This document shows positions 2,628-21,966 of a DNA stretch of 64,000 nucleotides, one piece after another. Below the pieces are notes generated by a model. The model searched no databases. It saw nothing but the letters and a program-made list of their open reading frames with translations, and was not told the origin of the DNA. This DNA is from Quadrisphaera sp. DSM 44207 (GTDB taxonomy: Bacteria > Actinomycetota > Actinomycetes > Actinomycetales > Quadrisphaeraceae). Position numbers and translations under genes: made by a program. Within the stretch, counting starts at the first letter, position 1. Each line of letters opens with the position of its first letter. The DNA is taken from positions 124,001 through 188,000 of the forward strand of contig NZ_FNKA01000001.1 of the NCBI RefSeq assembly GCF_900101335.1. Direction: 5' to 3'.

Positions 2628-5138
2628 TCAGGCGGGGACGGCGAGGTCGGGCTCCCGGCGGTCGCGGCCTGGGTGGCGCTCCGGGTCGTGCTCCGGGTCG
2701 TCGTCGAGGACCACGGCGTCCAGGTCGGCCTCGGCGACGGCGCCGTACGCCGACGCCGGCACGACCGAGGAGCCCTGCTCGGGGTCGGGGACGACGTCGA
2801 GGACGAGGTCGACCGTGTCGGCGGCGTCCGAGGCGTGGCTGATGACGACGACCTGGCGGGCGGGCAGGTCGCGGATCGCGGCCATCATCGCCGTGCGGCG
2901 GCCGCGGTCCTGCGCGGTGAACGGCTCGTCCAGCCACAGCAGGCCTCCGCGCTGGCCGGCGTAGAGCTCCCCGAGGGCCACCCGCAGCGCCAGGGCGACG
3001 GCCGACTCCTCCCCGCCGGAGAGCCAGGCGACGGGGCGCTGGTGGCCGTGCTCGTCGGTGACGACGGCGGTGAAGTCCTCGTCGAGCTCGACGGCGACGA
3101 AGCGGCCGCCGGTCATGCGGGCGACGAAGTCGGTGGCGACCTCGGAGACCTCGGGCGCCAGGCGGGCGACGCGGTCCTTGCGGAACGCGTCGAGCGCCTC
3201 CCGCACGCTCGCGGTGCGCTCGAGCTCGGCGAGGGTCTGGACGCGCGCCTGCAGCTTCGCCTGCTCGGTGGCCAGCGCCTGCTCCACGTGCGCCAGCTGC
3301 TGCTCGGCGAGGCGGAAGGCACCCTCGGCGGCCAGCACGGCCCGCGAGGACTCCTGCGCCTGGGCGACGGCGGTGGCGGTGGCGGTCTCGACGCGCCGGC
3401 GCTCCTCGTCCGGCACCGCGGCCGCCGCCTGCGCGGCGGTGGCCGCGGCGGCGGCGCGCTCGGCCTCGGCGGCGGTGCTCGCGGCGCGCGCGGCCTGCTC
3501 GCGGGCGGGCGCCAGGCGGGCGGCGGCCTCGGCCGCGTTCTCGGCCCGCCGCAGCTCCGCCGCGGTGCGCTGCACCTCCTGCTCGACGTGCGCGGCGCGC
3601 CCGCTCGCCTCCTGCGCGGCGCGCTGGGCGGCCTCGGCCCGGGCGCGGCTGGCTCGCGCCTCCTCGGTCGCCGCGCGCGCCTCCGCGGCGGCCTCGGCGT
3701 CCTCGGCCCGGGCCCGCTCGGCGCGGTCCGCGGCGTGGCGGGCCTCCTGGTGCGCCTGCAGGCCCTCCTGGGCGCGACGGCGCAGCGCGGCAGCGGCGCC
3801 CGCGGCGGCCTCCTGGGCGGCCTTGGCGCGCCGGCCCTCCTCCGCGACGCGGTCGCGGGTGCGGCGCAGGGTCTCCAGCAGGGCGCCCGGGTCCGGCAGC
3901 GGCGTGGAGCACGTGGGGCACGCCGGGCTGGTGGCCGCCTCGAGCGTGCGCAGCGCCGCGCTCAGGCGCTGGTGCTCCCCGCGCAGGGCGCCCAGGGCGT
4001 CGGTGCGCTCGTCGGCCTCCCGCTGCGCGGTGACCGCCTGCTCCTCCAGGTCGCTCGGAAAGGCCGCCGCCCGCGCCCGAGCCTGCTCCGCCGCGGCGAC
4101 GGCCGCCTCGGCCGCGGAGCGGGCCCTGCTCGCCCGCTCGGCGGTGCGCGCGGCCCGGGCGGCGTCGCGCTCGGCGTCCGCGCCGGCCCGCCGCGCGCCC
4201 TCCCGGGCGTCCCGGTCGAGAGAGGCGGCCTGCTGGGCGGCTGCGGCGGCGGCGCGGGCGGCCTGGACCTCCTGCGGGCTGCCGCCGTGCGCCGCCTCCG
4301 CCAGCTGCTCGGCGGAGCGGGCGGACGTCGCGGCCCGCTCAGCGGCCAGGACCCGCTGGTGGTCGGCGGCCCGGGCGGTGTCGGCGGCGGCGCGGGCGGC
4401 CTCCAGGCGGCGGGCGAGCGCGTCGGCCTCCCCTCGCGCGGCGGCGAGGGTGGCCTCGTCGGCGCCCGCCCGCGCCCGGGCGGCGTCCAGGCGCTCCCAC
4501 TCCCCGGCCGCGGCCTGCTGGGCGGCGTCCACGGCGCGCCGGGCGGCGGCGACGTCCTCCGCGGAGCCGGGCAGGACGTCCAGGCGGCGCTTGACGGCCG
4601 TCTCCTCCTCGCGGGCGCTGCGCACCGCGGCGCTCATCCGGTCGATGCCGGCGAGGCGCTCGAACAGGCGCCGCCGCTCCGCCGGGCGGGCGCGCACCAG
4701 GGAGTCGAGCTCCTTCTGCCGGGTGACGAAGGCGGCGAGGAACCCCTCGGCGTCCAGGCCCCCGAGGCGGTCGACGACCCACGCCTCGGCGGCCTTGACC
4801 CGCCCGAAGGCCTGCTCGCGGCCCTCGACGCGGATCGCGGCGTACGTGGTGTCCTTGGCGCCCTTCAGGCCCCGCTCGACCTCCACGAGCTGCCCGTCGT
4901 GGCGGAAGCGCACGACCGCCCGCACCTCCCCCGTGGAGCCCTGCCGGCGCATGGCCTGCACCGGCACGCCGTCGGGGGTGACGCCGTACAGGGCCCACAG
5001 CGCCGCCACGAGGATCGAGGTCTTGCCGACGCCGTTGCCGCCGTTGAGGGCGGTGACCCCGCCGTCGGTCAGCGGCTCGACGACGGCGTGGCCGATCGAG
5101 CGGACGTTGACGACCTCGATGCTCTCGACGGTGATCAC
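2628..5138 (-). CDS. sbcC: SbcC/Rad50-type SMC-like ATPase
   Basis: This is the ATPase half of the SbcCD (Mre11-Rad50) complex, which processes DNA ends and hairpins. The 836 residues show Walker A GGNGVGKTS at 33-41, two long Ala/Arg/Glu-rich coiled-coil arms, a zinc hook CPTC at 407-410, an ABC signature LSGGEES at about 706-712 and Walker B/D-loop LWLDEPFTAQD nearby. Typical SbcC proteins exceed 1,000 residues, so the coiled coils here are short. GTG at 5138 is chosen because it overlaps the sbcD stop by 4 bp (GTGA) and starts directly at the ATPase head; the frame is open for about 800 bp upstream but that is the antisense shadow of sbcD. It is the last gene of the minus-strand recG-nurA-herA-sbcD-sbcC series. 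Confidence 0.93.
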   Translation of the reverse strand: MITVESIEVVNVRSIGHAVVEPLTDGGVTALNGGNGVGKTSILVAALWALYGVTPDGVPVQAMRRQGSTGEVRAVVRFRHDGQLVEVERGLKGAKDTTYAAIRVEGREQAFGRVKAAEAWVVDRLGGLDAEGFLAAFVTRQKELDSLVRARPAERRRLFERLAGIDRMSAAVRSAREEETAVKRRLDVLPGSAEDVAAARRAVDAAQQAAAGEWERLDAARARAGADEATLAAARGEADALARRLEAARAAADTARAADHQRVLAAERAATSARSAEQLAEAAHGGSPQEVQAARAAAAAAQQAASLDRDAREGARRAGADAERDAARAARTAERASRARSAAEAAVAAAEQARARAAAFPSDLEEQAVTAQREADERTDALGALRGEHQRLSAALRTLEAATSPACPTCSTPLPDPGALLETLRRTRDRVAEEGRRAKAAQEAAAGAAAALRRRAQEGLQAHQEARHAADRAERARAEDAEAAAEARAATEEARASRARAEAAQRAAQEASGRAAHVEQEVQRTAAELRRAENAAEAAARLAPAREQAARAASTAAEAERAAAAATAAQAAAAVPDEERRRVETATATAVAQAQESSRAVLAAEGAFRLAEQQLAHVEQALATEQAKLQARVQTLAELERTASVREALDAFRKDRVARLAPEVSEVATDFVARMTGGRFVAVELDEDFTAVVTDEHGHQRPVAWLSGGEESAVALALRVALGELYAGQRGGLLWLDEPFTAQDRGRRTAMMAAIRDLPARQVVVISHASDAADTVDLVLDVVPDPEQGSSVVPASAYGAVAEADLDAVVLDDDPEHDPERHPGRDRREPDLAVPA

Positions 5139-6496
5139 CAGGGCACCTCCTGGCCGGTCTGCGCGTCCACGAGCGGGGCGTCGGCGACCTCGAGCAGCTC
5201 GGGCGGCTCCAGATCGGCCGGTTCGGCCGCGCGGGGGGACGGCGCGGCGGGCTCGACCCGGGCAGTGGGCGCGGGGGCGGGTGCGGGGGCCGCGTACTCC
5301 CCGCTCGCGACGTCCAGGGAGGCGGCCCGCAGGTGCCGCTCGCCCTCGGCCACGACGACGGGGCGCAGCTCGGCCGGCAGCCCCACGGCCGCGGCGTACT
5401 CGCCGACCCAGCCGCCGTAGACGGCCGGCAGGTCGGCCGCCCCGGCCGTCGTCAGCGACGCGGACAGGCCCGAGACGGTGCGCTCGCCGTCGTCGGCGGG
5501 GGTCTCGGGACGGCGGAAGTCCGGCATCCACACCAGCGCCCGCTCGGCCAGGCGCGCCAGGGCCGGCTGGTCCACGCCCCGGCGCACGCTGGTGGAGCAG
5601 TTGAGCACCACCTGGCGCACGATCGCGTCGTCGAGGTCGACCGAGGCCAGGTGGGCGCGGATCGCCTCCTCCACCTGCGCGCCCGTGAGCCCGTGCGCGT
5701 CGACCACCGGCAGGTCGTGCTGGGCGCGCTGGCCGATGTAGCGGCGCTCGACGCTGATCCGCCCGTCGGCGCCGACCTCCAGGAGCAGCCACCCGCGGCC
5801 CCCGGCCGGGTCGGCGAAGCCGCGGCGGATCGCGGAGCCCGCGTACCAGACGCCCGGCATGATCTCGTCCATGCCGTGGTAGTGGCCGAGGACCTTCAGG
5901 GCGAAGCGGTCGTCGGCGAGCAGGTCCAGGCCGATCGGCTGCTCGCCCGGGGAGTCCACGCACCGGAAGACCTCGTGGCCGGGCAGCATCGCGGCGCCGT
6001 GGGAGGACAGCACGTTGACGGCGCCGTCGACCGGCTCGGGCAGCAGCCGCTCGGCCTGCGCGAGGCCGTAGTGGCTGAGCACGTGCACGGCCAGGCCGTC
6101 GGCCGGGTGCACCACGCGGTAGGCGTCGGTGACGAACTCGACGCCCCGCTCGGGGTCGTGCACGGCGGCGGTCGCCGGTGACTTGCCGCGCTCAGCGGAG
6201 GCGTCGTGGTTGCCAGTGTTGCCCACCACCGGCACGCCGGCGCGCGCGAACCGCTCCAGCTGCTGGCGGGCCCACACGATGTCGCCGACGGCGGGGTGAG
6301 AGCGGTGGAAGAGGTCACCCGTCTGCAGGACCAGGTCGACCTCGGCCTCGAGGGCGCCGGTGACGCGGTCGCGGAAGGCCTTGTAGCCGTCGACGACCCG
6401 CTGGTTGCGCCCGGAGGCCACGTGCACGCGGCAGCGCGCGGCGTAGCCGAGGTGGTCGTCCCCGAAGACGGCGATCCGCAGGGAAGGAGTGCTCAC
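5135..6496 (-). CDS. sbcD: SbcD/Mre11-type exonuclease subunit
   Basis: This is the metallophosphoesterase nuclease of the SbcCD complex (453 aa). The calcineurin-like metal motifs appear in order: GDDHLGY near residue 12, QTGDLFHRS, GNTGNHD, LSSHGA and GHYHGMD. The C-terminal 130 residues are rich in Pro, Ala and Glu and probably contain the SbcC-binding region. GTG at 6496 follows GAGGGG 6-7 nt upstream and starts exactly at the first phosphoesterase strand (STPSLRIAVFGDDH). The stop overlaps the sbcC start by 4 bp, so the two are translationally coupled. herA ends 118 bp upstream on the same strand. Confidence 0.93.
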   Translation of the reverse strand: MSTPSLRIAVFGDDHLGYAARCRVHVASGRNQRVVDGYKAFRDRVTGALEAEVDLVLQTGDLFHRSHPAVGDIVWARQQLERFARAGVPVVGNTGNHDASAERGKSPATAAVHDPERGVEFVTDAYRVVHPADGLAVHVLSHYGLAQAERLLPEPVDGAVNVLSSHGAAMLPGHEVFRCVDSPGEQPIGLDLLADDRFALKVLGHYHGMDEIMPGVWYAGSAIRRGFADPAGGRGWLLLEVGADGRISVERRYIGQRAQHDLPVVDAHGLTGAQVEEAIRAHLASVDLDDAIVRQVVLNCSTSVRRGVDQPALARLAERALVWMPDFRRPETPADDGERTVSGLSASLTTAGAADLPAVYGGWVGEYAAAVGLPAELRPVVVAEGERHLRAASLDVASGEYAAPAPAPAPTARVEPAAPSPRAAEPADLEPPELLEVADAPLVDAQTGQEVPW

Positions 6497-6614: not shown

Positions 6615-9600
6615 TCAGAAGGGCGGCTCGTCGTCGATGCTGTCCAGCCCGCCGGTGAAGCCGGCGTCGGCGGACAGGCCCACGCCCGCGCCCGGGTCCA
6701 CCCCGCCGGTGGCCCGGTGGGCGCGCACCCGCTCGACCTCCTTGCGGAAGTCGGCGAGCCCGACCGGCGGCCGGCGGGGGGCGGCGACCGGCGCCGCGCC
6801 CCGCACCCCGGCACCCACCCCCGGCGCCCGCGCTCCCGAGCCCGCGCCCCGGCGGGCGGGCGTGCCGGAGAGCACTGGCAGGCCCAGGCTCATGCGCGTG
6901 GCCGTGATCCAGGACGCGTTGTCCTCGCGGAAGGCCTCGAAGTCGGTGTAGGCGGACAGGAACAGCGGCGCCTTGGTGAAGGACAGCGGGCTGACGGGCC
7001 CGGTGACCATGAACGGGTACACCTTCGGCTTCGTGGAGTCCGGCGGGGCGAACCCGCGGTAGAGCTTCAGGTGGTCGGGGTCGTCCAGGTGCTCGGCGAC
7101 CTTGGCGAGGTCCGCGCCGCCGAGCCCGTAGCCCATCACGCGCACGGCCAGCTGGTCCCAGATGTCGGGGTTGAGGCTGCGCGGGGTCTGCGTCACGTAC
7201 AGCCAGCCGATGCCGAACTTGCGGGTGTCGCGCGCGTAGCCGGCCAGGTCGCTGGAGAGGGCGCGCACCTCCTCCTCGGCGGTGGTGTGCACGGGCGGGG
7301 CGTAGCGCCACGCCTCGTCGAAGACCACCACGGTGTTCAGGGTCTCCCCCTCGCGGAAGGCGGCCTCCGAGGCCTCCTTGAGGGTGCGGCACGCCTTGCG
7401 CAGGATCGCCGCCTTCACGCTGTCCTGGTCGAGCACGCGCAGCGCCTCCAGCACGGCGCGCTGCTCCTCCCCCGCGAGCAGCGAGGAGACCCACGACACC
7501 TGCCCGCTGGTGCTCATGTCGAGCACCAGCAGCGGCGCCGGGGCACCCGCGCGCGAGGCCTTGTCGAAGACGTGCGCGATCGTGCCCCACATCGAGTGCC
7601 GCGCCCCGCCGCCGGGGTTGGTCGGCCCGAAGAGGTTGTGCAGGGGCTGGAACTGGCGGAAGACGTCGGCGAACCGGTCGCCGTCGGTGAGGACCTCCTC
7701 GATCGCCTCCCGCAGCCGCTGCTGGCGGTCCTCCGCGGCGTACACGCGCCCGAGCACGCTGAACGCCGTCAGCGACTGCAGCAGGGCCCGCAGCAGCGCC
7801 TCGGAGTCCTCGGTCTCCCAGTCCGGGCGCTTGCGCACGAGCTTCACGAGCTCGTCGACGAGGTAGCCGGCGGTCTCCGAGGACATCTTGGCGATCTCGG
7901 CGCAGAAGCGGGTCTTGGCCAGCAGCTCCCCGAGCAGCGGGGCGTCCTTCTCCAGCCGCAGGTCCTCGCTGACCCGCCGGACGACGACCTCGCGGCCCAT
8001 CTCCCGCGCCCACTCCTGCAAGGAGAAGGCCATGCCCGTCTCCGAGGCGAACTGGCCCTGCGGGTCGATGACGATGATGCCGTGGTCCTGGTGCCGCATC
8101 TGGCCGGCGAGGTAGTAGGCGGCCATCTGCGTGTTGTGGGTCGGGATCATGGACCTGCCAGCGAGGTACAGCCGGCTGGGCGAGTCCACGGTGATGCACC
8201 GCACGGGCACCGACGCCACGGGGCGGACGTCGACGACGTACCGGTGGGAGGTCTTCGCCGGGTTGTGGCGGCGCGCGCGCTCCCGGTGCGCCGATCTCTT
8301 GCGGGTGAGCCGGAACACCTCGTCGGCGGTGGTGAAGCTGATCCGCCACGTGGGCCCGCAGTCACGACCGGCGAGCGTGTCCTGCTCCTCCGTGACGGTC
8401 GGCCGGTACCCGAGGGAGCACACGAGCTCGTGGACGCCGTCGATCAACACCCGGTTGGTGTTGTCGAAGTGGACTGCGCCGGAGGCTGCCGACGTGCCGT
8501 CGCTGTCGAGCAGGCCCGCGAGGAGCGCTCGCCGCTGCTCCTCCGAGGCGCGGAGGTACTCCGCGGGCACGTGCTTGTTCCGCAGGACCCCCAGGCGCCG
8601 GAGCACCCCGGTCGTGGTCCGGACGGCGTAGCAGGCCGCGCACCTGGCGGGGGGCCGCGCGCCCTGCAGGACGACGCCGCAGACCGTGCACGAGCTGCTC
8701 GCGCGCGACGAGCGGCCCCGGCACCTGGCGCTGCAGGTCCTCGAGCAGTACTGCTGACGGTAGGCGCTGGGCCGGTAGGAGGCGCCGCACACGGCACACG
8801 TGCGCTCAGGCAGTGCTGAGGGCGCCAAGGCGTCGTCCCACGTGACGCTGTAGCCGTACGGGTCACCGCGCTGCTCCTCGACCCTGGACTCGGCGTCCCG
8901 CAGGTGCTGCACGACCTCCACGTCCGCCGTGGTGATGCCGGCTCCCGAGCTCCTGCCGTCGCCGAGCCAGATCCCGAGGTCGTAGGGGTCGAGGGGCAGG
9001 TCGGCGTCGGGCAGGGCCAGGGGCTGCGCCACCGGGACGGCGTGCTCGGCGTCGCCGCCGGCGGTGCGCAGCGTCGCGCGGATCTCCTCCGTGGTGACGA
9101 CCCGGCCCTCGCTGCGCCTGCGACGCTGGTCACCGACGGGGTTGGCGGCGTGCTCGGCGAGGACCTCGAGCAGCATGCGCCTGGGGTAGAGCTGGGCGGA
9201 GGCGGGGAGCCGCCGGACGACGGTGCGCGCCTCCAGGTCGACGGTGAGCGGGACCCGCAGCACCGCCATCCGCACACCGGTCCCGACGATCTTGCGGCGC
9301 AGAGCACCGTTGCGAGGCGGCACGCCGACGAGCCGGGCGACGTCCGGCATGGTGATCCACTCCGGCGCCTGCCCAGCGGCGTGCACCAGGCGTGGGGTGA
9401 GGGAGGGGTTGAAGACAGGGTTGGACGTCTTTCCGGCTCGCGCGGCGTCTGCCAGCGCCAGGAGCAGCTCCCGCCCCGCGAAGACGGGCAGCTCCCGGGT
9501 GCGCTGGAAGGACTGCGCTCGGTAGGAGAAGGCGTGGTCCTGGATGCGGACCCCGACGGCCCCGACCGCTCGGGCGCAGCTGGTCACGGCCGAGGACGAG

Positions 9601-10553
9601 GGGCCGAGCCCGGTCAAGGTGGCTACCTCGGCCAGCGTGATGGTCTCCTCGGGTGCGCTCGCCGAGGCCTGGGCGCGCAGGTGCGTCAGGATCGCCGGAG
9701 CGAGGAGGGGGCGCCGCGAGCGCCGGTGCTCCAGGCGGCGGGCGGCGCTGGCTGACAACCGGACCTGCGTGTCCTCGGTGAACCACAGGTGCTCGCCGTC
9801 GGCGACGATGCGGGACCCGTCGGAGAAGACGACCTCGTAGCAGTCGCGACCAGTCATCACGTCGTGCGCCGCGAGCACCGTGGTGGGCCGACCGCCTTCG
9901 TCGAAGACCGCGTCCCCGGCTCGCAGATCACCCATCCGCGTCCATCCGTCGGGCGTCGGGACGGGCGTGTCGACGTCGATGGCCTTCCCGCTCCCCGTGC
10001 TGCCGAAGACCGCGGCGTGGAACGCCCCGCGAGGACCGGAGAAGTCCCGGACGGACAGGGGCGCCCGTACGTCGGTGCCGTGCAGGTGGCCGAGGAAGTG
10101 CAGGTCCTCCTCCCCGGCCATGAGCTCGTCGACGACCTCGTTGGTCACGCGGCGCACGGCCGTGCCGGTGGGCGGGGACATGCGCAGCGACGGCCCGGAC
10201 TGGCGCCAGCTCCCGACGTCGCCCGCGTCGGCGTCCGCGCGCCGGTAGCAGGCCTGCAACCGGATCCCGGCGGCGCGCACGTCGCCGAGGTCCCCGGACA
10301 TGCCGGGGATGGACCCGCGGGTCTTGACCACCCCGCGCAGCAGGGGGTTGGTGTGCCACTGGTTGGTCGTGGTGACCTCGGTGACCACCCCGAGCGCGAG
10401 CTCCTCGCCCTCGGCGAGCGGCTGGGCCAGGCACAGCATCGACCCGACGAGCGGCTCGTGGGTGGCGCTGTCGAGCAGGTCGAGGGTGACCTCGTAGTTC
10501 GAGGAGGGGGAGCCGACGACGGCGACCTGCTCGGCGTTCTCGATCGGGTCCAC
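6615..10553 (-). CDS. herA: HerA-type DNA-translocating ATPase containing an intein
   Basis: The 1,312-codon frame encodes a 695-residue FtsK/HerA-superfamily ATPase plus a 617-residue intein. The first 190 residues hold the N-terminal HerA-like domain, ending in Walker A GSTGSGK. The intein is residues 191-807, and the extein resumes with TQMAAYYLAG, completing GSTGSGKT. Further ATPase motifs are VIDPQGQF, the Walker B VVVFDEAW and a sensor-like TQTPRSL. The tail is a Gly/Pro/Arg-rich linker with a short helix. HerA hexamers pump DNA for the NurA nuclease during end resection. GTG at 10553 has AAGGAG at 10564-10569. nurA lies 85 bp upstream and sbcD 118 bp downstream. The uninterrupted protein cannot bind ATP until the intein splices out. 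A conjugation ATPase is less likely because nurA and sbcCD flank it. Confidence 0.9.
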   Translation of the reverse strand: MDPIENAEQVAVVGSPSSNYEVTLDLLDSATHEPLVGSMLCLAQPLAEGEELALGVVTEVTTTNQWHTNPLLRGVVKTRGSIPGMSGDLGDVRAAGIRLQACYRRADADAGDVGSWRQSGPSLRMSPPTGTAVRRVTNEVVDELMAGEEDLHFLGHLHGTDVRAPLSVRDFSGPRGAFHAAVFGSTGSGKAIDVDTPVPTPDGWTRMGDLRAGDAVFDEGGRPTTVLAAHDVMTGRDCYEVVFSDGSRIVADGEHLWFTEDTQVRLSASAARRLEHRRSRRPLLAPAILTHLRAQASASAPEETITLAEVATLTGLGPSSSAVTSCARAVGAVGVRIQDHAFSYRAQSFQRTRELPVFAGRELLLALADAARAGKTSNPVFNPSLTPRLVHAAGQAPEWITMPDVARLVGVPPRNGALRRKIVGTGVRMAVLRVPLTVDLEARTVVRRLPASAQLYPRRMLLEVLAEHAANPVGDQRRRRSEGRVVTTEEIRATLRTAGGDAEHAVPVAQPLALPDADLPLDPYDLGIWLGDGRSSGAGITTADVEVVQHLRDAESRVEEQRGDPYGYSVTWDDALAPSALPERTCAVCGASYRPSAYRQQYCSRTCSARCRGRSSRASSSCTVCGVVLQGARPPARCAACYAVRTTTGVLRRLGVLRNKHVPAEYLRASEEQRRALLAGLLDSDGTSAASGAVHFDNTNRVLIDGVHELVCSLGYRPTVTEEQDTLAGRDCGPTWRISFTTADEVFRLTRKRSAHRERARRHNPAKTSHRYVVDVRPVASVPVRCITVDSPSRLYLAGRSMIPTHNTQMAAYYLAGQMRHQDHGIIVIDPQGQFASETGMAFSLQEWAREMGREVVVRRVSEDLRLEKDAPLLGELLAKTRFCAEIAKMSSETAGYLVDELVKLVRKRPDWETEDSEALLRALLQSLTAFSVLGRVYAAEDRQQRLREAIEEVLTDGDRFADVFRQFQPLHNLFGPTNPGGGARHSMWGTIAHVFDKASRAGAPAPLLVLDMSTSGQVSWVSSLLAGEEQRAVLEALRVLDQDSVKAAILRKACRTLKEASEAAFREGETLNTVVVFDEAWRYAPPVHTTAEEEVRALSSDLAGYARDTRKFGIGWLYVTQTPRSLNPDIWDQLAVRVMGYGLGGADLAKVAEHLDDPDHLKLYRGFAPPDSTKPKVYPFMVTGPVSPLSFTKAPLFLSAYTDFEAFREDNASWITATRMSLGLPVLSGTPARRGAGSGARAPGVGAGVRGAAPVAAPRRPPVGLADFRKEVERVRAHRATGGVDPGAGVGLSADAGFTGGLDSIDDEPPF
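8133..9983 (-). other. 617-aa intein in the HerA Walker A motif
   Basis: The insertion interrupts GSTGSGK|T between Lys190 and Thr808. It begins with Ala1 rather than Cys/Ser (AIDVDTPVPTPDGW), has block B ADGEHLWF with His65 and Trp67, block F VRCITVDS with Cys596, and ends IPTHN with Thr615-His616-Asn617, followed by extein Thr. Ala1 plus Trp/Cys/Thr at these places matches the WCT set of class 3 inteins, which start splicing from the block F Cys. Residues about 330-580 hold a LAGLIDADG endonuclease: first motif LGIWLGDG, second LLAGLLDSDG. Between them are cysteine pairs resembling two zinc ribbons (CAVCG...CSRTC and CTVCG...CAAC). A long stretch at about 85-320, with two helix-turn-helix-like segments (ITLAEVATLTGL, ITMPDVARLVGV), precedes the endonuclease. 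Boundaries are read directly; class and activity are inferred. Confidence 0.9.
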
Positions 10554-10638: not shown

Positions 10639-11886
10639 TCAGCCCGGTGGCGCCTCGGGCCGGTTCGCGGGCGGGCGGGCGGAGGTGCGGGCGGGGCTCG
10701 GTGTCACGCGCGTGCGGTACGAGCGGGCCAGCCACATCAGATAGTCCTCGGACCCGTCGGGCAGGTTCGCCAGCAGGGCCTCGTTGAGCGCCTCGGCGCC
10801 GGTGGAGACGGCCTTGGCGGCGAGGTCGACGGCGTACTGGGCGAAGGGCTCCTGCAGGTGCGGCCCGGGCGTCTCCGCCGACAGCAGGGCGGCGATGCGC
10901 CGCACCTCCGCGAGCGCGCCGCCGTCGTCGCCGTCCCGCGCGTCGGCGAGGGGCTCGCTGACGCGGGCCTCGACCTTGAGGATCGTCTCCGCCGTGGTGG
11001 GCCGCAGGTAGGTGACGACGACCTCGTCGGCGGCCGCCGCCCGGCGCAGCGGCGCGACGGCCTCGTCGAGCCGGTCGGCGACGGCGCGCACGTGCGGCGT
11101 GGCGTCGTCGCGGGCGCTGACGTGGACGTCGGCGAGCTCGTCGGCGGGGCGGGGGCGCAGCATCTCCCCGGGCCCGAGGACCTGGGCGGCGACGAACCGG
11201 TCGCCGCCGGGCAGGTCGAGGCCGTGGGCGCGCAGGTAGCGCTCGGAGAAGGCGGTGGAGGAGTCCGCCTTCGGCAGGGCGACGACCTCGCCGGGCGCGG
11301 TGCGCCGGTCGGGGTCGGCGAGGGCCGCGAGCGCGTCGACGACCTCGTCGGTGACCAGGTCGGCCGCGGCCTGCGCGACGGCGGGCGAGCGGGCGGACAG
11401 CGCGGTGGACAGCGCGATCACCGGCGTGCCGTGGGAGCCGTCGAGCAGGCGCAGGTCGTGCTGCAGGGAGGCGATCAGGCACAGCTCGAGGCCGGCCATG
11501 GCCGCCGCGAGCAGCCTGTCGTTGTCGGACTCGTGGGTGCGCACCGCCGCCCAGTGCCGCTGCCCGAGCGGCAGGTGGGCGGCGGAGGTCATGCCCTCCG
11601 CGGAGGCGGCGACGGCGACCATGAGGTCGGCGGCGTACAGGTGCTCGCGCACGGAGCCGCCGTCGACGGCGGCGATGCTCGCGCTGGGGAGCACCGCGGC
11701 GCTGCGGGAGAGGAAGGGCTCGATCTCCCCGGCCTGCAGCAGCCGCTGGCGCAGGGGGGCGCGGCGGCTGGCCACGGGCGCCAGCAGCCGGTGCGCCTCG
11801 CGCGCGAGGGGCTCGGCCTGGGCGATGAGGTCCTGCAGCATCGCGGCCGTCAGGGGCGGGCGGGGCCCGACCGGCAGCTCGCTCAC
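10639..11886 (-). CDS. nurA: NurA-type 5'-3' nuclease
   Basis: The protein (415 aa) matches the NurA domain, the nuclease partner of HerA. Visible features are the first metal-binding strand SIAAVDGGSVREHLYAADL with Asp75, a second acidic strand RLLDGSHGTPVIAL near residue 145, and a C-terminal FAQYAVDLAAKA helix. NurA degrades DNA ends when driven by the HerA translocase. GTG at 11886 overlaps the recG stop by 4 bp (GTGA), which fixes the start. The last 25 residues are Pro/Arg-rich and disordered. The herA start is 85 bp downstream. The assignment rests on these motifs plus the adjacency to herA; bacterial NurA homologues are divergent, so some uncertainty remains. Confidence 0.85.
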   Translation of the reverse strand: MSELPVGPRPPLTAAMLQDLIAQAEPLAREAHRLLAPVASRRAPLRQRLLQAGEIEPFLSRSAAVLPSASIAAVDGGSVREHLYAADLMVAVAASAEGMTSAAHLPLGQRHWAAVRTHESDNDRLLAAAMAGLELCLIASLQHDLRLLDGSHGTPVIALSTALSARSPAVAQAAADLVTDEVVDALAALADPDRRTAPGEVVALPKADSSTAFSERYLRAHGLDLPGGDRFVAAQVLGPGEMLRPRPADELADVHVSARDDATPHVRAVADRLDEAVAPLRRAAAADEVVVTYLRPTTAETILKVEARVSEPLADARDGDDGGALAEVRRIAALLSAETPGPHLQEPFAQYAVDLAAKAVSTGAEALNEALLANLPDGSEDYLMWLARSYRTRVTPSPARTSARPPANRPEAPPG

Positions 11887-14585
11887 GACTTCGCCAGCCA
11901 GGCGGCGAGCTCCGGGCCCAGGGCGGTGTGGACCTCCGCGCGCAGCCCGGGCCGGCGCGCCAGGGTCGGATCGGCGTCCAGCAGGGCGGTCGCCTCCTCC
12001 CGGGCGGTGAGGACGAGGGGGAGGTCGCGGCGCAGGTCGGCCACGCGCAGGTCGCTCTCGCCGGACTGGCGGGCGCCGAAGACGGAGCCGGCGCCGCGCA
12101 GGTCCAGGTCGACCTCGGAGAGGTGGAAGCCGTCGGTGGACCCCACGAGGGCGTGCATGCGCGCGACCGCGTCGGCCGAGCCGGCGCGGCCGGTCAGGAC
12201 GCACGTGGAGGCGTGGCGGCCGCGGCCGACGCGCCCGCGGATCTGGTGCAGCTGCGCGATGCCGAAGCGGGGCGCGTCGAGGACGACCATGACGGTGGCG
12301 TTGGGCACGTCGACGCCGACCTCGATCACGGTGGTCGCCACGAGCACGTCCAGCTCGCCGACGGCGAAGGCGGCCATGGTGGCCTCGCGCTCGGTGCGGT
12401 CCTGGCGCCCGTGCACCAGGCCGACGCGCAGGCCGGCCAGGGCGCCGTGCTGCAGGGCCTCGTGGGCCTCGGTCGCCGACTGCGCGGCGATCTTCTCGTT
12501 GTCCTCCACCAGGGAGGCGACGACGTACGCCTGCCGCCCGGCCCCGACCTGCTCGCGCACGAGCCGCCAGGGCCCGGCGTCGGCGTCGTCCAGGTCGAGG
12601 GTCTCGGGCAGCCAGGAGGTGGCGATGGGAGTGCGGCCGGGCGGCAGCTCGTCGAGGACGGAGACGTCGAGGTCGCCGAAGACGGTCAGGGCGGCGGTGC
12701 GCGGGATCGGCGTGGCGGTCATGACGAGCGTGTCCGGCACGCCGGAGCGGCCCTTGGCGCGCAGGGTGGCGCGCTGCTCGACGCCGAAGCGGTGCTGCTC
12801 GTCGACGACGACGACGCCGAGGTCGGCGAAGTCCACGCCCTGCGTCAGCAGCGCGTGGGTGCCGACGACGAGGTCGGTGCTGCCGTCGGCCAGGCCGGCG
12901 AGGATGCGTCGCCGGTCCGCGGCCTTGGTCTTGCTGGCTAGCAGCTCGACGACGAGGGGGCGCCCGTCGGGGTGCTGCACGGCCAGCAGCCGGCTCGCCA
13001 GCTCCCGGTGCAGCTGGGTGGCGAGGATCTCCGTGGGCGCCATGAGCGCGCCCTGGTAGCCGCCCTCGACCGCGGCGAGCAGCACCGTCGCGGCGACGAG
13101 GGTCTTGCCCGAGCCGACGTCGCCCTGCAGCAGGCGGTGCATGGGGTGGGGCCGGGTCAGGTCCGCGGTGATCTGCGCGAGCGCGCGCTGCTGGGCGCCG
13201 GTGAGGGCGAAGGGCAGCTGGGCGAGCAGCTGGCCGGTCAGGGCGCCGCTGGGGCGGTGGGCGACGCCGGTCTCGGCGGCGGTCGCGTGCCGGCGCAGGC
13301 CCAGGGCCAGCTGCATGCGCAGCAGCTCGTCGAAGGCGAGGCGCTCGCGGGCGCGCCCGGCCGCCTCGACGCTGTCGGGCCGGTGCACCTGCTGGTAGGC
13401 CTCCCGGCGCGCCAGCAGGTCGTGGCGCTCGCGGACGTCGCCGGGCAGGGGGTCGGCGAGGTCGCCGAGGCGGCGCGCGGCCTCCATGGCAGCCCCGTGC
13501 AGGTCCCACGTGCTCACCTGCGCCTTGGCGGACTGCGGGTAGACGGGCACGACGAGCGCGGTGTCGCCGCCGAGGCGGTCCATGACGGGGTTGGTCATCT
13601 GCACCTGCCCGCGCCCGCCGCGGCCGGTCCACAGGTCGACCCTGCCCCACAGGGAGACCTCGTCGCCGACGCGGAAGCGGTGCGGGATCCACGGGGCCTG
13701 GAAGAACGTGACCTCCAGGGTGCCCGTGCCGTCCGCGACGGCGACCCGCACCAGGCGGCGGGTGCGGTCGTACTGCCCGATCCGGGAGATGGTGGCGATC
13801 AGGCCGGCGTCCGTGCCGACGAGGTCGCGCAGGCCCCGCACCGGCGTGGCGGTGGAGCGGTCGAGGTAGCGGCGGGGGACGAGCATCAGCAGGTCGTAGA
13901 CGCTGCGCACGCCGGTCTCGGCGAGGCGGGCGGCCAGGGACGGCGTCCTGCCGCGGGCGCGCTGGGCGCGCACGGCGTGCAGCTCCTGCACGGGCACCCC
14001 GCGCAGGCCGTCGATGGTGCCGTCGTAGTCGAAGGGCGCGTAGCGGGCCGCGGCGGCGGCGCGCACGTCGGGGTGGACGAGCAGGCCGTGGGCCTCGGCG
14101 AAGGCGATCACGTCCTCGACGCGGTCCAGGGACGCGCGCCAGCACTGCGCGGCGCCGTCCCAGGTGGCCGCGGTGCGCCGCTTGACGTCGTCCTGCAGCG
14201 CGGCGGTGTGCTCGAAGCGCACCTCCACCCGTTCGCCGGCGAGGACGACGTCCGGCACGGGCTCGCTGTCGGCGGCCTCGCGCAGCGCCGCGCGGGCGGC
14301 CTCGTCGATCTCGGGCCGCTGGCCCGTCAGGGCGCCGCGCAGGGCCAGGGCGCAGCGGCGGGTGAGCGGGAAGCGCCAGGCGCCGGTGCTCGTCCACGCG
14401 GCCCCGGGCAGGTCGCGCAGGCGCTCGCGCAGCGGGTGGAACGCGGGGGCGCTGACCAGCACGCCGCCGTCCTCCAGGGCGACGACCACGCGCTCGAGCG
14501 TCGCCTCGGGCGGCGCCTCGGCCGGTGCCTCGGCCGGCGGCGCGCTACCGCGCGTGCGGGGGTCGAACAGCGCTCCCTGGCTCAC
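11883..14585 (-). CDS. recG: ATP-dependent DNA helicase RecG with N-terminal extension
   Basis: RecG remodels stalled forks and Holliday junctions. The protein has 900 residues, while actinobacterial RecG is usually about 700-750. The first 200 residues are extra: two segments (FHPLRERLRDLPGAAWTSTG and FEHTAALQDDVKRRTAATWD) resemble HARP-type annealing-helicase modules by their spaced hydrophobics and W-x(n)-W pattern, which is inference. The normal RecG follows: wedge/OB domain (about 255-345, VRGLRDLVGT), Walker A GDVGSGKT, DEQH box in VVVVDEQHRFG, TATPIPRT, and the QIRGRVGRG helicase motif VI. GTG at 14585 follows GGGAGGGGA and begins SQGALFDP. It heads the minus-strand repair series and overlaps nurA by 4 bp. 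Confidence 0.92.
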   Translation of the reverse strand: MSQGALFDPRTRGSAPPAEAPAEAPPEATLERVVVALEDGGVLVSAPAFHPLRERLRDLPGAAWTSTGAWRFPLTRRCALALRGALTGQRPEIDEAARAALREAADSEPVPDVVLAGERVEVRFEHTAALQDDVKRRTAATWDGAAQCWRASLDRVEDVIAFAEAHGLLVHPDVRAAAAARYAPFDYDGTIDGLRGVPVQELHAVRAQRARGRTPSLAARLAETGVRSVYDLLMLVPRRYLDRSTATPVRGLRDLVGTDAGLIATISRIGQYDRTRRLVRVAVADGTGTLEVTFFQAPWIPHRFRVGDEVSLWGRVDLWTGRGGRGQVQMTNPVMDRLGGDTALVVPVYPQSAKAQVSTWDLHGAAMEAARRLGDLADPLPGDVRERHDLLARREAYQQVHRPDSVEAAGRARERLAFDELLRMQLALGLRRHATAAETGVAHRPSGALTGQLLAQLPFALTGAQQRALAQITADLTRPHPMHRLLQGDVGSGKTLVAATVLLAAVEGGYQGALMAPTEILATQLHRELASRLLAVQHPDGRPLVVELLASKTKAADRRRILAGLADGSTDLVVGTHALLTQGVDFADLGVVVVDEQHRFGVEQRATLRAKGRSGVPDTLVMTATPIPRTAALTVFGDLDVSVLDELPPGRTPIATSWLPETLDLDDADAGPWRLVREQVGAGRQAYVVASLVEDNEKIAAQSATEAHEALQHGALAGLRVGLVHGRQDRTEREATMAAFAVGELDVLVATTVIEVGVDVPNATVMVVLDAPRFGIAQLHQIRGRVGRGRHASTCVLTGRAGSADAVARMHALVGSTDGFHLSEVDLDLRGAGSVFGARQSGESDLRVADLRRDLPLVLTAREEATALLDADPTLARRPGLRAEVHTALGPELAAWLAKS

Positions 14586-14807
14586 CCGCTCCCCTCCCCG
14601 CGACAGCGACCGGCTCGTGGGCGCACACGCTACGAGGCTCCTCCGACAGCGCCGTCCCCGGAGGGCGAGCGGGCGCGCTCCGGAGCCGGCGAGCACCTGG
14701 AGGACGAGCACGCGGGCGACGAGCGCCAGGGCAAGGGGCGGCTCCGCGTCGGCGGTGAGCGCGGGAACGGGGGCAGTGGAGCCGGCTCGACGCCCGTCCG
14801 GGAGGTG

Positions 14808-14880
14808 CTCCCGCACTTGGACTCGAACCAAGAACCTGCCGGTTAACAGCCGGCTGCTCTGCCAATTGAGCTATGCGGGA
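14808..14880 (-). tRNA. tRNA-Asn (anticodon GTT)
   Basis: Read on the minus strand, 73 nt fold into a cloverleaf: acceptor TCCCGCA/TGCGGGA, D-arm GCTCAATTGGCAGAGC, anticodon stem CCGGC around CTGTTAA (GTT), and a T-arm with GGTTCGAGTCC. The discriminator is G and CCA is not encoded. Confidence 0.97.
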
Positions 14881-16414: not shown

Positions 16415-18664
16415 TCACCTCGGCGCCAGCGGGACGTCGGGCAGCGGGCGGCCGAGGAGGAAGCCCTGGGCGCGGGGGCAGCCGTGCTCGCGCAGGAAGT
16501 CCCACTGCGCCTGCGTCTCGACGCCCTCGGCGGTGACCTCGAGGTCGAGCTCGGCGGCCATGCTCAGGATCGCGCGGACGATGCTGGCCGCCCGCGGGTC
16601 GGTGGGCAGGGCGGTGATGAACGTGCGGTCGATCTTCACCCCGGCCAGGGGCATGTCGGCCAGGTAGCTGAAGGAGGAGTAGCCGGTGCCGAAGTCGTCG
16701 AGGACCAGGTGCACCCCGGCTCCGGTCAGCTCCCCCAGGGCGGCTGCGGTCGCGTCGGCGTGCAGCACCTGGGTCTCGGTGATCTCCAGCTCCAGGCGGT
16801 CGGCCGGCAGCCCCACCTCCTCCAGCACGTGCAGGACGCCGTTGGCGTAGCCGGGGTGGCGCAGCTCGACGGCGCTGACGTTGACCGCGACCCGGGAGCT
16901 TGCGGCGGAGGCGGGCCACCGCGTCGCCGCCTGGCAGGCCTGGTGCAGCACGGAGCGGCCCAGGCGCGTGATCAGGCCGCTGTCCTCGGCGGTCGCGATG
17001 AAGTCCTCCGCGGCCGCCGGCCGCCCGTCCGGCGGCGTCCACCGCGCCAGTGCCTCGGCGGCGACGACGCGGCGGTCCGGCAGCGCCACGATCGGCTGGA
17101 ACACCACCGCGACCTCGTCGCGGTCCACGGAGCGGCGCAGGGCGCTCTCCCGGGTCTGCACGGTGATCGCGTCCGCGTGCATCTGCGCGTCGAAGGGCAC
17201 GTGCCGGCCGCGCCCTCCGGCCTTCGCGCGGTGCAGGGCGACGTCCGCGCGGTGCAGCGCCTCCTCGACCGTGACCGTCGGCGAGGACGTCAGCGTGGAC
17301 GTCGGGACGAACGTCAGCGCGGACGCCAGCGCGGACGTCGCGGAGGCGTCCAGGGAGGTGCTGCCGATGCTCGCGCTCACGTGCACCGCCCCGGCCGGGG
17401 TCTCGACGGGTGCGTCCAGGGCGGCCAGCACGCGGGCGGCGGCGGCGCTGATCTCGTCGGGGCCGTGCGCGTCGTCGAGCAGGATCGCGAACTCGTCGCC
17501 CCCGAGCCGGGCGACGGTGTCGCCCGTGCGGGTCGCAGAGCGCATCCGCTGCGCGACCTCCACGAGCACGGCGTCGCCGGCGCGGTGCCCGAGGCTGTCG
17601 TTGATCTGCTTGAACCGGTCCAGGTCCACGAACAGCAGCGCGCCGCCGCGCGACCGCGCGCCGTCCTCGCCCTGCGACGGTGAGCGCCGCGCCAGCGCCT
17701 GGCTCAGGCGGTCGGTGAGCAGGGTCCGGTTCGCCAGCCGGGTCAGCGGGTCGGCCAGCGCCGCCTGCCGGTGCGCCTCGGCGTCGGCCTGGCGCTGGCT
17801 GACCGCGGCTCCCAGCAGCACCCCGAGCAGGGTGAGGGTGACCAGGCCGAACTGCAGCACGAAGCCGCCCTGGCCGGCCACGTCCCCGCCGGTGAGGGCG
17901 ACGGCGCCGACGTTGGTGACGAGCACCGCCACCGTCGCGGGCACGAACCCGCCGCGCAGCGCGATCCAGATCAGCGGCACGTAGACGAGGTAGCTGTAGT
18001 CCAGGGAGGCGCCGCTGCCCGCGAACGCGATCCACACCGCCACGGCCAGCAGGAGCACCTGCGCGGCCTGCTCCACGTGGCTCACCGGCCCCGACGCCCT
18101 CGCCGACAGGTCCGGACGGGCGTCCGCGGCGCGCGGCCAGCGCCGGGCCGCGACCAGCAGCACCGGCGCGAGCATGCCCACACCGGTCGCCGACCCGGCC
18201 CAGTACCCCGCCAGCCCCGTGAAGACGTCGGTGGGCTCCACCACGCCGGCGCCGGTGAGGAACCACAGCTGCACCACGGCCATCGGCAGGGGCGCCGCCA
18301 GGCACATCACCACCACGAACCACGTGACGTCCCGCAGGGTCGGCAGCCGGGGGTCCACCCACAGCCGGCGGGTCAGCAGCGCCGCGCCCGCCGTGTAGCC
18401 GCCCGCCGTTACCACGGCCAGGGTCGCGACCTGCCACCAGGACAGCCCGGCCGGCACGACCAGCGCCCACTGGACGACGGTCGCCAGCACGAGCGCCGGA
18501 GCCCACCGCAACCCCAGGAGGAGGAGCAGCACGACGTCCAGCGCCGCCGGCGGGAACCACAGCGACACCCCGGGAGCGACCTGCAGGTGCGAGGCGACCC
18601 AGGCCAGGCCCGTCCACGCGGCCAGGTACAGCACCAGGACGAGGGCTGCTCCGCGTCGGGACAC
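16415..18664 (-). CDS. MASE1-GGDEF-EAL cyclic-di-GMP enzyme
   Basis: A 749-aa membrane protein that makes and/or degrades c-di-GMP. Residues 1-290 form about eight hydrophobic helices of MASE1 type (LWFPPAALDVVLLLLLGLRW). The GGDEF domain starts at DPLTRLANRTLL, has the intact active site LGGDEF and a VDLDRFKQINDSLGH strand, so cyclase activity is plausible. The EAL domain has AEALARW, the LEITETQ glutamate, DDFGTGYSS, KIDRTFI and AEGVET, the residues needed for Mg2+-dependent hydrolysis. GTG at 18664 opens SRRGAALVLVLYLAAW. A PilZ protein at 43.9 kb is a possible distant effector. The gene is monocistronic, 41 bp from the epimerase start on the same strand. Confidence 0.92.
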   Translation of the reverse strand: MSRRGAALVLVLYLAAWTGLAWVASHLQVAPGVSLWFPPAALDVVLLLLLGLRWAPALVLATVVQWALVVPAGLSWWQVATLAVVTAGGYTAGAALLTRRLWVDPRLPTLRDVTWFVVVMCLAAPLPMAVVQLWFLTGAGVVEPTDVFTGLAGYWAGSATGVGMLAPVLLVAARRWPRAADARPDLSARASGPVSHVEQAAQVLLLAVAVWIAFAGSGASLDYSYLVYVPLIWIALRGGFVPATVAVLVTNVGAVALTGGDVAGQGGFVLQFGLVTLTLLGVLLGAAVSQRQADAEAHRQAALADPLTRLANRTLLTDRLSQALARRSPSQGEDGARSRGGALLFVDLDRFKQINDSLGHRAGDAVLVEVAQRMRSATRTGDTVARLGGDEFAILLDDAHGPDEISAAAARVLAALDAPVETPAGAVHVSASIGSTSLDASATSALASALTFVPTSTLTSSPTVTVEEALHRADVALHRAKAGGRGRHVPFDAQMHADAITVQTRESALRRSVDRDEVAVVFQPIVALPDRRVVAAEALARWTPPDGRPAAAEDFIATAEDSGLITRLGRSVLHQACQAATRWPASAASSRVAVNVSAVELRHPGYANGVLHVLEEVGLPADRLELEITETQVLHADATAAALGELTGAGVHLVLDDFGTGYSSFSYLADMPLAGVKIDRTFITALPTDPRAASIVRAILSMAAELDLEVTAEGVETQAQWDFLREHGCPRAQGFLLGRPLPDVPLAPR

Positions 18665-18784
18665 GACTGGTCATGGGACCACAACTGGGCTCCACGCGCA
18701 GTGCCGCGCGAGTGACCCGGGCACGTCCCACCCCACGCCGGGCCGACCGGCGCGGCGGTGGCACACTCGCAGGCCGAACGCTTC

Positions 18785-18858
18785 GGGGCGGTAGCTCAGC
18801 CGGTCAGAGCAGGGGACTCATAATCCCCGGGTCGTGGGTTCGAGCCCCACCCGCCCCA
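18785..18858 (+). tRNA. tRNA with CAT anticodon (tRNA-Met, or tRNA-Ile2)
   Basis: A 74-nt cloverleaf with acceptor GGGGCGG/CCGCCCC, D-arm GCTCAGCCGGTCAGAGC, anticodon stem GGGGA/TCCCC around CTCATAA, and T-arm GTGGGTTCGAGCCCCAC; discriminator A, no encoded CCA. A CAU anticodon can be elongator Met or lysidine-modified Ile; this cannot be decided by eye. The AT-richer island begins directly after its 3' end. Confidence 0.95.
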
Positions 18859-21735: not shown

Positions 21736-21966
21736 GTGAAGCTCAGCGTGAGCCTGTCCGAGGAGGACGTGGCCATCCTCGACGAGTACGCCCGCACCGC
21801 CGGCCTGCCTTCACGCTCGGCGGCGCTGCAGCAGGCCGTGCGCCGGCTCCGCCACGTCGACCTGGAGCAGGACTACGCCGCGGCCTTCGCCGAGTGGAGC
21901 GCTTCCGGAGAGCGCGCGGCCTGGGAGGCAGCTGCTGGAGACGGGCTGGACGATGCGGCGCGGTGA
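21736..21966 (+). CDS. MazE-like ribbon-helix-helix antitoxin
   Basis: A 76-aa protein starting [20 protein letters not shown], the usual start of actinobacterial MazE/RHH antitoxins. The ribbon-helix-helix occupies residues 1-45 ([14 protein letters not shown]). The acidic, Trp-containing tail ([18 protein letters not shown]) is the expected toxin-binding segment. GTG at 21736 is chosen for its family-like N-terminus; in-frame GTG codons at 21709 and 21712 would add nine or eight residues. It overlaps the toxin gene by 14 bp. Such pairs usually repress their own promoter through the RHH domain. Confidence 0.85.

Follow-up and report, generated by a model that had tools for sequence, protein, structure and literature searches.

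In Quadrisphaera sp. DSM 44207, the Walker A motif of a HerA-family ATPase is split between Lys190 and Thr808 by a 617-residue insert that is very probably a class 3 intein, and a mobile one, carrying a LAGLIDADG endonuclease. The ATPase gene lies amid NurA-, Mre11- and Rad50-like genes. The window, i.e. the whole stretch of DNA that was analysed, covers 64,000 nt (assembly GCF_900101335.1, contig NZ_FNKA01000001.1, positions 124,001-188,000, forward strand). Within it, the precursor is encoded by a single open frame without internal stop (Table 1), in which the motif GSTGSGK/T is interrupted. A sequence-only reading of this DNA had placed the split at 8133-9983, starting with Ala and ending with THN before Thr, and the ORF translation agrees exactly: GSTGSGK runs up to residue 190, the intein begins with Ala191 (its residue 1), and THN ends at residue 807, followed by Thr808. 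When the insert is removed, the P-loop is restored and aligns across residues 190/808, gapless at the site, with seven of seven aligned intein-free homologues.

No earlier report of HerA as an intein host was found in the literature. The type of intein and the insertion spot are both already known, as mycobacteriophage TerL1-a inteins lie between the same Lys and Thr, in what is termed a classic P-loop insertion (PMC5050341). What is new is therefore the host rather than the kind of intein, together with the finding of an orthologous intein in one Kineococcus genome and an empty site in three others. With this case, the ATPases known to carry a class 3 intein in the P-loop include HerA, a motor associated with DNA-end resection, and related bacteria provide alleles with and without the insert. 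The locus thereby offers a natural system for asking whether host ATPases are gated by their P-loop inteins under stress, and how class 3 inteins pass between P-loop ATPases that are unrelated to one another, whether phage, plasmid, or chromosomal.

Table 1. Features of the herA-type locus, in window coordinates
Feature	Position	Strand	Details
RecG gene, upstream	11883..14585	-	start picked by inspection; ~200 additional N-terminal residues
NurA-like gene, upstream	10639..11886	-	VDGG and DGSH motifs; start picked by inspection
herA-type precursor gene	6615..10553	-	1312 aa; GTG start at 10553
N-extein	9984..10553	-	190 aa; ends with P-loop GSTGSGK
Class 3 intein	8133..9983	-	617 aa; Ala1 to Thr-His-Asn617
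Splicing domain, N-terminal part	9699..9983	-	residues 1-95; blocks A and B; Asp62, His65, Trp67, Cys48
Cys48 codon	9840..9842	-	position of the redox-switch partner Cys48 in M. smegmatis DnaBi1
Trp67 codon (B:12, WCT set)	9783..9785	-	Trp in 99/99 rows
Extra region	9099..9698	-	residues 96-295; predicted helical, confidence mostly low
LAGLIDADG (DOD) homing endonuclease	8259..9098	-	residues 296-575; Asp342 and Asp495 kept
Four cysteine pairs, likely zinc ribbon (Cys396-Cys451)	8631..8798	-	between the two LAGLIDADG motifs
Splicing domain, C-terminal part	8133..8258	-	residues 576-617; blocks F and G
Cys596 codon (F:4), predicted initiating nucleophile	8196..8198	-	Cys in 99/99 rows
Thr615 codon (G:5)	8139..8141	-	Thr in 98/99 rows
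C-extein	6618..8132	-	505 aa; first residue is the Walker A Thr (+1)
Mre11-like gene, downstream	5135..6496	-	start picked by inspection
Rad50-like gene, downstream	2628..5138	-	start picked by inspection

Class 3 splicing domain

The insert carries the marks of class 3, namely Ala1, His65, Trp67, Cys596, Thr615, His616, Asn617, and Thr+1 (Thr808). The three residues named beforehand as the WCT set (Trp67, Cys596, and Thr615) are at the positions given for them and align with 98 other class 3 rows, chosen by similarity to the HerA intein, and with 6rix and 6bs8. In the resulting 99-row alignment, His65 and the terminal Asn are also present in every row, and position 48 is Cys in 91. The proposed class also holds in comparisons with structures: the best phmmer matches among PDB sequences are class 3 DnaB inteins (6rix, 6riy, and 6bs8; E 3.9e-31, 2e-30, and 2.3e-29, respectively). 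The predicted model has mean pLDDT values per block of 96-98 at residues 1-70 and 95-98 at residues 581-617, and its splicing domain shows the HINT fold of solved class 3 inteins, superimposing on that of the class 3 M. smegmatis intein 6bs8_C over 125/125 residues (Z 23.1, rmsd 1.2 A, 52% identity). Additionally, all 24 Foldseek matches in the PDB at E <= 0.001 are titled as inteins or intein endonucleases.

The Pfam model Intein_splicing (PF14890) misses both the HerA intein and a class 3 mini-intein that is present in the DnaB P-loop of the same genome; its matches in the genome are both within a second DnaB intein.

HerA-family host and neighbouring genes

The exteins are 73.8-76.6% identical to three Kineococcus HerA proteins. 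The DUF87 model (HerA central domain) matches the precursor at residues 154-190, within the N-extein, at 18.0 bits, which is under the cut-off of 23.2, as expected for a split domain; two intein-free homologues exceed this cut-off (33.0 and 28.3 bits). A profile of host homologues finds seven PDB sequences at E <= 0.01, the best being HerA 4d2i (E 5.1e-16); five are titled as HerA or DUF87/HerA domain, and two as DNA helicase and ATP-binding protein. None of the NCBIfam HerA equivalogs (helicase_HerA, HerA_Thermprot, and HerA_antiphage) scores above 32.8 bits, where their cut-offs are 800-970; the HerA_Thermprot stretch lies at precursor residues 1039-1139. The HerA host proposed from the sequence alone thus stands at the level of the family: as judged by sequence, the host is a member of the HerA family (HerA/FtsK superfamily) and not an orthologue of the named NCBIfam equivalogs, as its scores are far under their cut-offs.

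The herA-type gene is adjoined by the Mre11-like and Rad50-like genes, and the order NurA-like, HerA, Mre11-like, Rad50-like is similar to that of an archaeal operon for resection (PMC4351679, PMC7776575). The Mre11-like product matches Metallophos (2.1e-9) and Mre11_Halo (E 8.8e-15, below the equivalog cut-off), and the Rad50-like product matches a Rad50 model (E 1e-30, also below the equivalog cut-off). The NurA-like protein has no HMM match and no telling PDB match, and its name therefore rests on motifs and position; its relatives adjoin HerA in locus L006 and on a Euzebya plasmid. The RecG gene product is matched by RecG model NF008168 over residues 206-888 (755 bits, cut-off 718).

The gene order argues for a role in end resection, and yet there is a real possibility, somewhat short of an even chance, that the host is not a chromosomal helicase for end resection and instead serves as the HerA-family motor in an accessory or plasmid-borne defence or DNA-processing system. 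Six of eight plasmid records with a homologue are actinobacterial (four of the records were inspected), PADLOC mads_8 is matched by a Kineococcus HerA (E 1.3e-10) and mads_3 by the Rad50-like protein of the window (E 5.3e-34), and the low equivalog scores point the same way. In such a system the intein would be unrelated to resection. This alternative concerns the host only and is compatible with the insert being a class 3 intein.

Filled and empty sites in relatives

Among the four HerA-bearing Kineococcus genomes found, one (G748) carries an intein orthologous to this one, inserted at the same codon, and the site is empty in the other three. The two HerA inteins are identical at 34/37 residues of blocks F/G, and both keep Cys48. 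As assembled, the reading frame of the G748 copy shifts within the endonuclease; unless this is an assembly error, no full-length HerA would be made there. HerA was not found in any of the 12 other genomes of the Quadrisphaera family, suggesting that it is dispensable in that family.

Proposed splicing and its consequences for HerA

Class 3 inteins are described as using Cys(F:4) (PMC5222942). By the biochemistry of this class, Cys596 would attack the bond between Lys190 and Ala1, giving a branched intermediate at block F; the N-extein would then move to Thr+1, and Asn617 would cyclise, remaking GSTGSGKT. The precursor would be inactive as an ATPase before splicing, so that HerA activity would require it. 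That splicing would gate HerA, and tie ATPase activation and end resection to itself, is a sound inference, given the split Walker A motif, the loss of ATPase activity in the S. islandicus HerA Walker A mutant K154R (PMC4351679), and the RadA P-loop intein, which is said in PMC6195587 to disrupt ATPase function. The endonuclease would copy the intein gene into empty herA alleles, and the common P-loop may have allowed its relatives into ATPases as unlike as FtsK, terminase, and DnaB. The intein would be mainly a selfish element, which the host can tolerate since it splices itself out, and a role in regulation, if there is one, would be secondary.

One such role, compatible with the insert being an intein and adding regulation as proposed for DnaBi1 and DnaB, is a conditional switch in which Cys48-Cys596 oxidation, or zinc on Cys596, slows splicing, so that cell stress would govern, through the intein, both HerA and the processing of DNA ends. 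Cys48, Asp62, His65, and Trp67 are numbered identically in the HerA intein and DnaBi1, and Cys48 is shared by both HerA inteins. DnaBi1 is reported to form a Cys48-Cys118 disulfide under H2O2 and to bind zinc on Cys118, Val119, and Tyr128 (PMC6195587, PMC7360933), and Tyr606 is at the position of the last of these. However, seven of seven DnaBi1 Cys48 mutants lost splicing (PMC6195587) and Cys48 is common among class 3 rows, so splicing by itself may explain why it is conserved; furthermore, the empty site in three of four Kineococcus genomes argues against a needed switch. Such a switch is unlikely. Its fuller form is decidedly improbable: HerA splicing would be a redox- and zinc-sensitive checkpoint, at which oxidative stress locks Cys596-Cys48, precursor with a split Walker A builds up, and NurA/HerA/Mre11/Rad50 processing waits for reduction. 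With the class 3 mini-intein of DnaB in the same genome, one chemistry could pause both replication and end processing.

It is very unlikely that the intein is degenerate, with splicing lost and HerA a dead gene. The frame change in the Kineococcus copy, the apparent dispensability of HerA in the family, and the known inactive class 3 relative Arth_1007 (PMC3196547) would be consistent with decay, but in the window copy the catalytic residues are all intact, as are the two Asp of the endonuclease, and dN/dS between the two intein-bearing genes is 0.22 in blocks F/G and 0.34 and 0.39 in the exteins (own NG86 script, few codons). Splicing by a class 1 or class 2 route is hardly credible: residue 1 is Ala, hence neither Ser, Thr, nor Cys, which excludes class 1, and although class 2 inteins (with KlbA given as the sole known case in PMC3196547) also have no residue-1 nucleophile, the WCT set is complete and the closest homology is to class 3 inteins.

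Endonuclease, extra region, and related inteins

The insert looks mobile from its sequence, since its LAGLIDADG endonuclease keeps both Asp residues. Pfam LAGLIDADG_3 (PF14528) matches at 24.5 bits (cut-off 22.5), there are two LAGLIDADG motifs with catalytic Asp, and the whole predicted model matches PI-SceI with Z 26.6. The putative zinc-ribbon cysteines are almost invariant across a 33-row alignment and are missing in the intein (L096) of an FtsK/SpoIIIE-type ATPase on Rhodococcus sp. RDE2 plasmid pRDE01. This plasmid intein is the nearest full-length relative and architecture, aligning with 546/617 residues, including the extra region, at 38-49% identity. The extra region is matched over its length by the plasmid intein and the second HerA intein, weakly by L100, and in part by a few DnaB inteins. 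The plasmid host has a Pfam FtsK_SpoIIIE match and belongs to the wider HerA/FtsK superfamily, and its insertion is at the P-loop (GGRTGSGK/S). It is, however, of FtsK type rather than HerA, and residue 1 of its intein is Met.

Trees were built solely from relatives of the HerA intein bearing class 3 marks. The HerA inteins branch apart from the DnaB rows, and the careful tree groups the HerA intein with inteins of plasmids and viruses (93/90, with a bootstrap that had not settled); a placement with the DnaB inteins is not rejected by the AU test (p 0.156). The mycobacterial DnaB P-loop inteins (M. smegmatis DnaBi1, 6bs8/6own; M. chimaera MchDnaB-1, 6rix) share with it Cys48, Asp62, His65, Trp67, the block F Cys, and THN, but their host is DnaB, their +1 residue is Ser, and DnaBi1, a mini-intein, has no endonuclease. 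The host of the TerL1-a inteins, compared here by their published description, differs in being a phage packaging ATPase (PMC5050341). Similarly, the B. vietnamiensis IcmO intein is of class 3, but as described in PMC5222942 it is a mini-intein with Cys+1, and the native flanks given there (Ser-Leu-Gly-Phe / Cys-Ile) hold no P-loop Lys/Thr site.

A class 3 intein splits the Walker A motif of a HerA-family ATPase

The HerA-family gene carries an in-frame insert (Table), such that its Walker A motif starts with GSTGSGK at precursor residues 184-190 and is completed by Thr808. These coordinates and residue numbers, first given by the sequence-only reading, proved correct when checked on the open frame and the insert sequence. 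The insert carries Ala1, Trp67, Cys596 and Thr615, in addition to His65, His616, Asn617 and Thr+1, and class 3 inteins are defined by Trp B:12, Cys F:4 and Thr G:5 (PMC5222942, in part). In a phmmer search with the insert as query, five PDB sequences matched at E <= 0.01, every one an intein, and the best three were mycobacterial DnaB class 3 inteins (6rix, 3.9e-31; 6riy, 2e-30; 6bs8, 2.3e-29). The earlier class 3 assignment is thus supported both by the Trp, Cys and Thr set and by the nearest PDB sequences. The matches were confined to intein residues 2-81 and 584-617, with none in the middle. Speaking against an intein, the general Intein_splicing model of Pfam found neither this one nor the DnaB class 3 intein of the same genome.

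An AlphaFold model of the intein (33-row alignment) has a mean pLDDT of 76, with block means of 96-98 at residues 1-70 and 95-98 at residues 581-617. In VIA-align, its match to 6bs8_C had a Z of 23.1, with 125 residues at an rmsd of 1.2 A, and that to PI-SceI, a complete endonuclease-bearing intein, a Z of 26.6. All 24 Foldseek matches at E <= 0.001 were titled intein or intein endonuclease. Four cysteine pairs lie between the two LAGLIDADG motifs. GC3 is 0.935 in the intein, compared to 0.984 and 0.992 in the exteins.

Table. Features of the HerA-intein precursor (positions in the window unless stated otherwise)
Feature	Location	Strand	Description
HerA-family precursor gene	6615-10553	-	single open frame, 1312 codons
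Intein	8133-9983	-	617 residues between precursor residues 190 and 808
Extra region	intein residues 96-295	-	helical, mostly poorly modelled
LAGLIDADG endonuclease	intein residues 296-575	-	two motifs with Asp342 and Asp495; PF14528, 24.5 bits (cut-off 22.5)

The host ATPase and its neighbours

The sequence-only reading had named the host HerA, and membership of that family held up. The split precursor scores 18.0 with DUF87, under the cut-off of 23.2, which two insert-free homologues exceed (33.0 and 28.3). A profile of seven homologues matched seven PDB sequences at E <= 0.01, the best being HerA 4d2i (5.1e-16); five carry HerA or DUF87/HerA domain in their titles, and the other two DNA helicase and ATP-binding protein. 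With the named NCBIfam HerA equivalogs, scores reached at most 32.8 bits against cut-offs of 800-970, and we therefore regard the host as a member of the HerA family of ATPases rather than as an archaeal HerA orthologue. An AlphaFold model of HerA (4-row alignment) had a mean pLDDT of 33 and was not used.

The herA-type gene has Mre11-like (E 8.8e-15), Rad50-like (E 1e-30) and recG neighbours. Motifs and position suggest that another neighbour is NurA-like, although a NurA profile search gave no convincing match. Three plasmid proteins divergent to herA were also considered as NurA and were dropped because they are 16-19% identical and lack both the VDGG and DGSH motifs. The Rad50-like protein (2628-5138) matches PADLOC mads_3 (E 5.3e-34) and a Kineococcus HerA (L013) matches mads_8 (E 1.3e-10), making a link to a defence system possible. 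RecG (11883-14585) has approximately 200 extra N-terminal residues, and a tRNA-Asn gene (14807-14880) lies near its gene. Positions 18001-22000, adjoined by a tRNA-Met gene at 18785, have a GC content of 0.63-0.65 versus 0.72-0.80 in other 2-kb steps and are possibly an island.

Filled and empty herA alleles

The sequence-only reading had made its claim depend on whether intein-free homologues align across residues 190/808. Seven homologues (three from Kineococcus and four from actinobacterial plasmids) show no gap at this Lys190/Thr808 joint when aligned, and in three more distant ones (L117, L151 and L124) the P-loop is unbroken by motif. With HerA profiles, this HerA was found in 5/396 genomes of the order (E <= 1e-15): the site is filled in the window's genome and in G748, the second carrier, and empty in G042, G057 and G755. 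We infer that the latter three and G748 are Kineococcus. Four of the 12 genomes of G057's family have HerA, one of them filled, and it was not found in any of the 12 further genomes in the family to which the window belongs. Across the phylum, 2/396 genomes were positive (E <= 1e-12), and a Kineococcus HerA query matched none of 50,697 phage records. Large actinobacterial plasmids carry homologues (L120, L121, L122 and L123) that are 33-36% identical to L013; in Rhodococcus, Corynebacterium and Dietzia plasmids, about 2 kb downstream of HerA, there is a hypothetical protein of 442-449 aa, succeeded by an SMC- or AAA-family ATPase.

The G748 intein (L152) sits at the same herA codon and is 54% identical to the window intein at residues 1-504 (276/508 columns) and 68% at residues 502-617 (79/116), with 34/37 identical positions in blocks F and G. 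It retains Ala1, Cys48, Asp62, His65, Trp67, the block F Cys, THN and Thr+1. Between the two genes, dN/dS, computed over few codons with an in-house NG86 script, was 0.22 in F/G, 0.39 in A/B, 0.60 in the extra region, 0.45 and 0.62 in the endonuclease halves, and 0.34 and 0.39 in the exteins. The L152 reading frame shifts inside the endonuclease, at about G748:C1:4649064-4649086. Either faulty assembly or a genuine lesion could account for this; in the latter case, the G748 gene would give no full HerA.

Relatives and origin of the intein

Intein matches occur in 100/345 genomes of the class (E <= 1e-8), and 9/13 genomes of the window's family, its own included, match at E <= 1e-5. Relatives with both intein ends numbered 98, drawn from 73 class-genome places, the genome's own DnaB, viral contigs, phages and plasmids, after removal of L044 and L049 (a single intein end) and L003 (a duplicate of L002). 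By flanking letters, 69 lie in DnaB-type P-loops, a label assigned by script and checked with Pfam for one, and 29 lie elsewhere. The latter hosts include terminases (per phage or plasmid annotation), a plasmid FtsK (L096), AAA_10 ATPases (L098 and L100), a Helicase_C_2 protein (L097) and a dCTP deaminase (L070), among others. Class 3-marked inteins of L070, L078 and L080 sit at RLEGK|SSLGRLG; the L070 host, a dCTP deaminase by Pfam, is no ATPase, though GK|SS resembles a P-loop. Across all 99 rows, window included, Trp, Cys(F:4), His65 and Asn are invariant, Thr(G:5) is present in 98, His(G:6) in 97 and Ala1 in 88, with the ends of two distant rows (L099 and L100) extrapolated from BLAST and possibly misplaced.

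When matches to the window intein are ranked on summed BLAST bits, L096 (381), from an FtsK/SpoIIIE-type ATPase on Rhodococcus sp. RDE2 plasmid pRDE01, comes first, followed by L015 (367). L096 also spans the whole extra region at 38% identity, L100 does so at 26%, and two DnaB inteins cover it partly. In a 54-row tree, which excluded five long-branch rows and 41/69 DnaB rows and in which the bootstrap had not settled, the two HerA inteins group with L096, L112 and L047 (plasmid FtsK, other plasmid and viral-contig inteins) at 93/90, and pair with each other in 88% of bootstraps but with an SH-aLRT of just 41. In a tree of 70 rows covering the endonuclease region, a branch at 99 separates the DnaB rows from the others, which include the window; the highest identity of the window intein in this region is to a DnaB row (53%). 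The placement of the HerA inteins among non-DnaB rows is unstable. For instance, L097, a plasmid helicase intein, adjoins the window in a 99-row quick tree (84) and lies elsewhere in the 54-row tree.

The DnaB of the same genome (L002, G000:C1:1273740-1276991) has a P-loop class 3 mini-intein of 169 aa with the full signature. Descent of the HerA intein from it was set aside on the 93/90 grouping and the split at 99, although the AU test on the 54-row tree did not formally reject a placement of the HerA with the DnaB inteins (p 0.156). Further along, this DnaB contains another intein, which has a LAGLIDADG domain; M. smegmatis DnaB likewise has two inteins.

Because Lys|Thr is a classic P-loop insertion site (PMC5050341, in part) and a class 3-type intein was already in the public record in another HerA/FtsK-superfamily motor (L096), the HerA intein belongs to a known kind and is new in its host. 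Literature searches confined to open-access papers gave no account of a HerA intein, passages of PMC8987985, PMC2718504, PMC2743648, PMC7776575 and PMC7824862 included, and do not establish absence from print.

Splicing, HerA activity and mobility

By analogy with the class 3 route (PMC5222942, PMC3196547 and PMC6195587, each in part), Cys596 would attack the Lys190-Ala1 bond, the N-extein would be handed to Thr808, and Asn617 would cyclise, restoring GSTGSGKT. Before splicing, 617 residues separate the Walker A Lys from its Thr. The K154R mutant of S. islandicus HerA has lost ATPase activity, and of six mutants just D176E retains the essential function (PMC4351679, in part). Therefore, by analogy, HerA activity should be conditional on splicing. 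Among bacteria, however, D. radiodurans and T. thermophilus can reportedly do without HerA and NurA (PMC7776575, in part), and the gene is patchy here, so failed splicing need not kill the host. Because the intein has an endonuclease and both filled and empty alleles occur, we favour its being a mobile element first.

Regulation of splicing in the HerA intein seems unlikely. In DnaBi1, the M. smegmatis DnaB P-loop class 3 intein, two things block splicing: a disulfide between Cys48 and Cys118, and zinc bound to Cys118, Val119 and Tyr128 (PMC6195587 and PMC7360933, both in part). Cys48, Cys596 and Tyr606 of the HerA intein occupy the positions of these two cysteines and this tyrosine. Although Cys48 is termed non-conserved in the DnaBi1 paper (PMC6195587, in part), it was found in 91/99 of the class 3 rows compared. 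No tested Cys48 mutant of DnaBi1 spliced, and thus this conservation may reflect splicing only.
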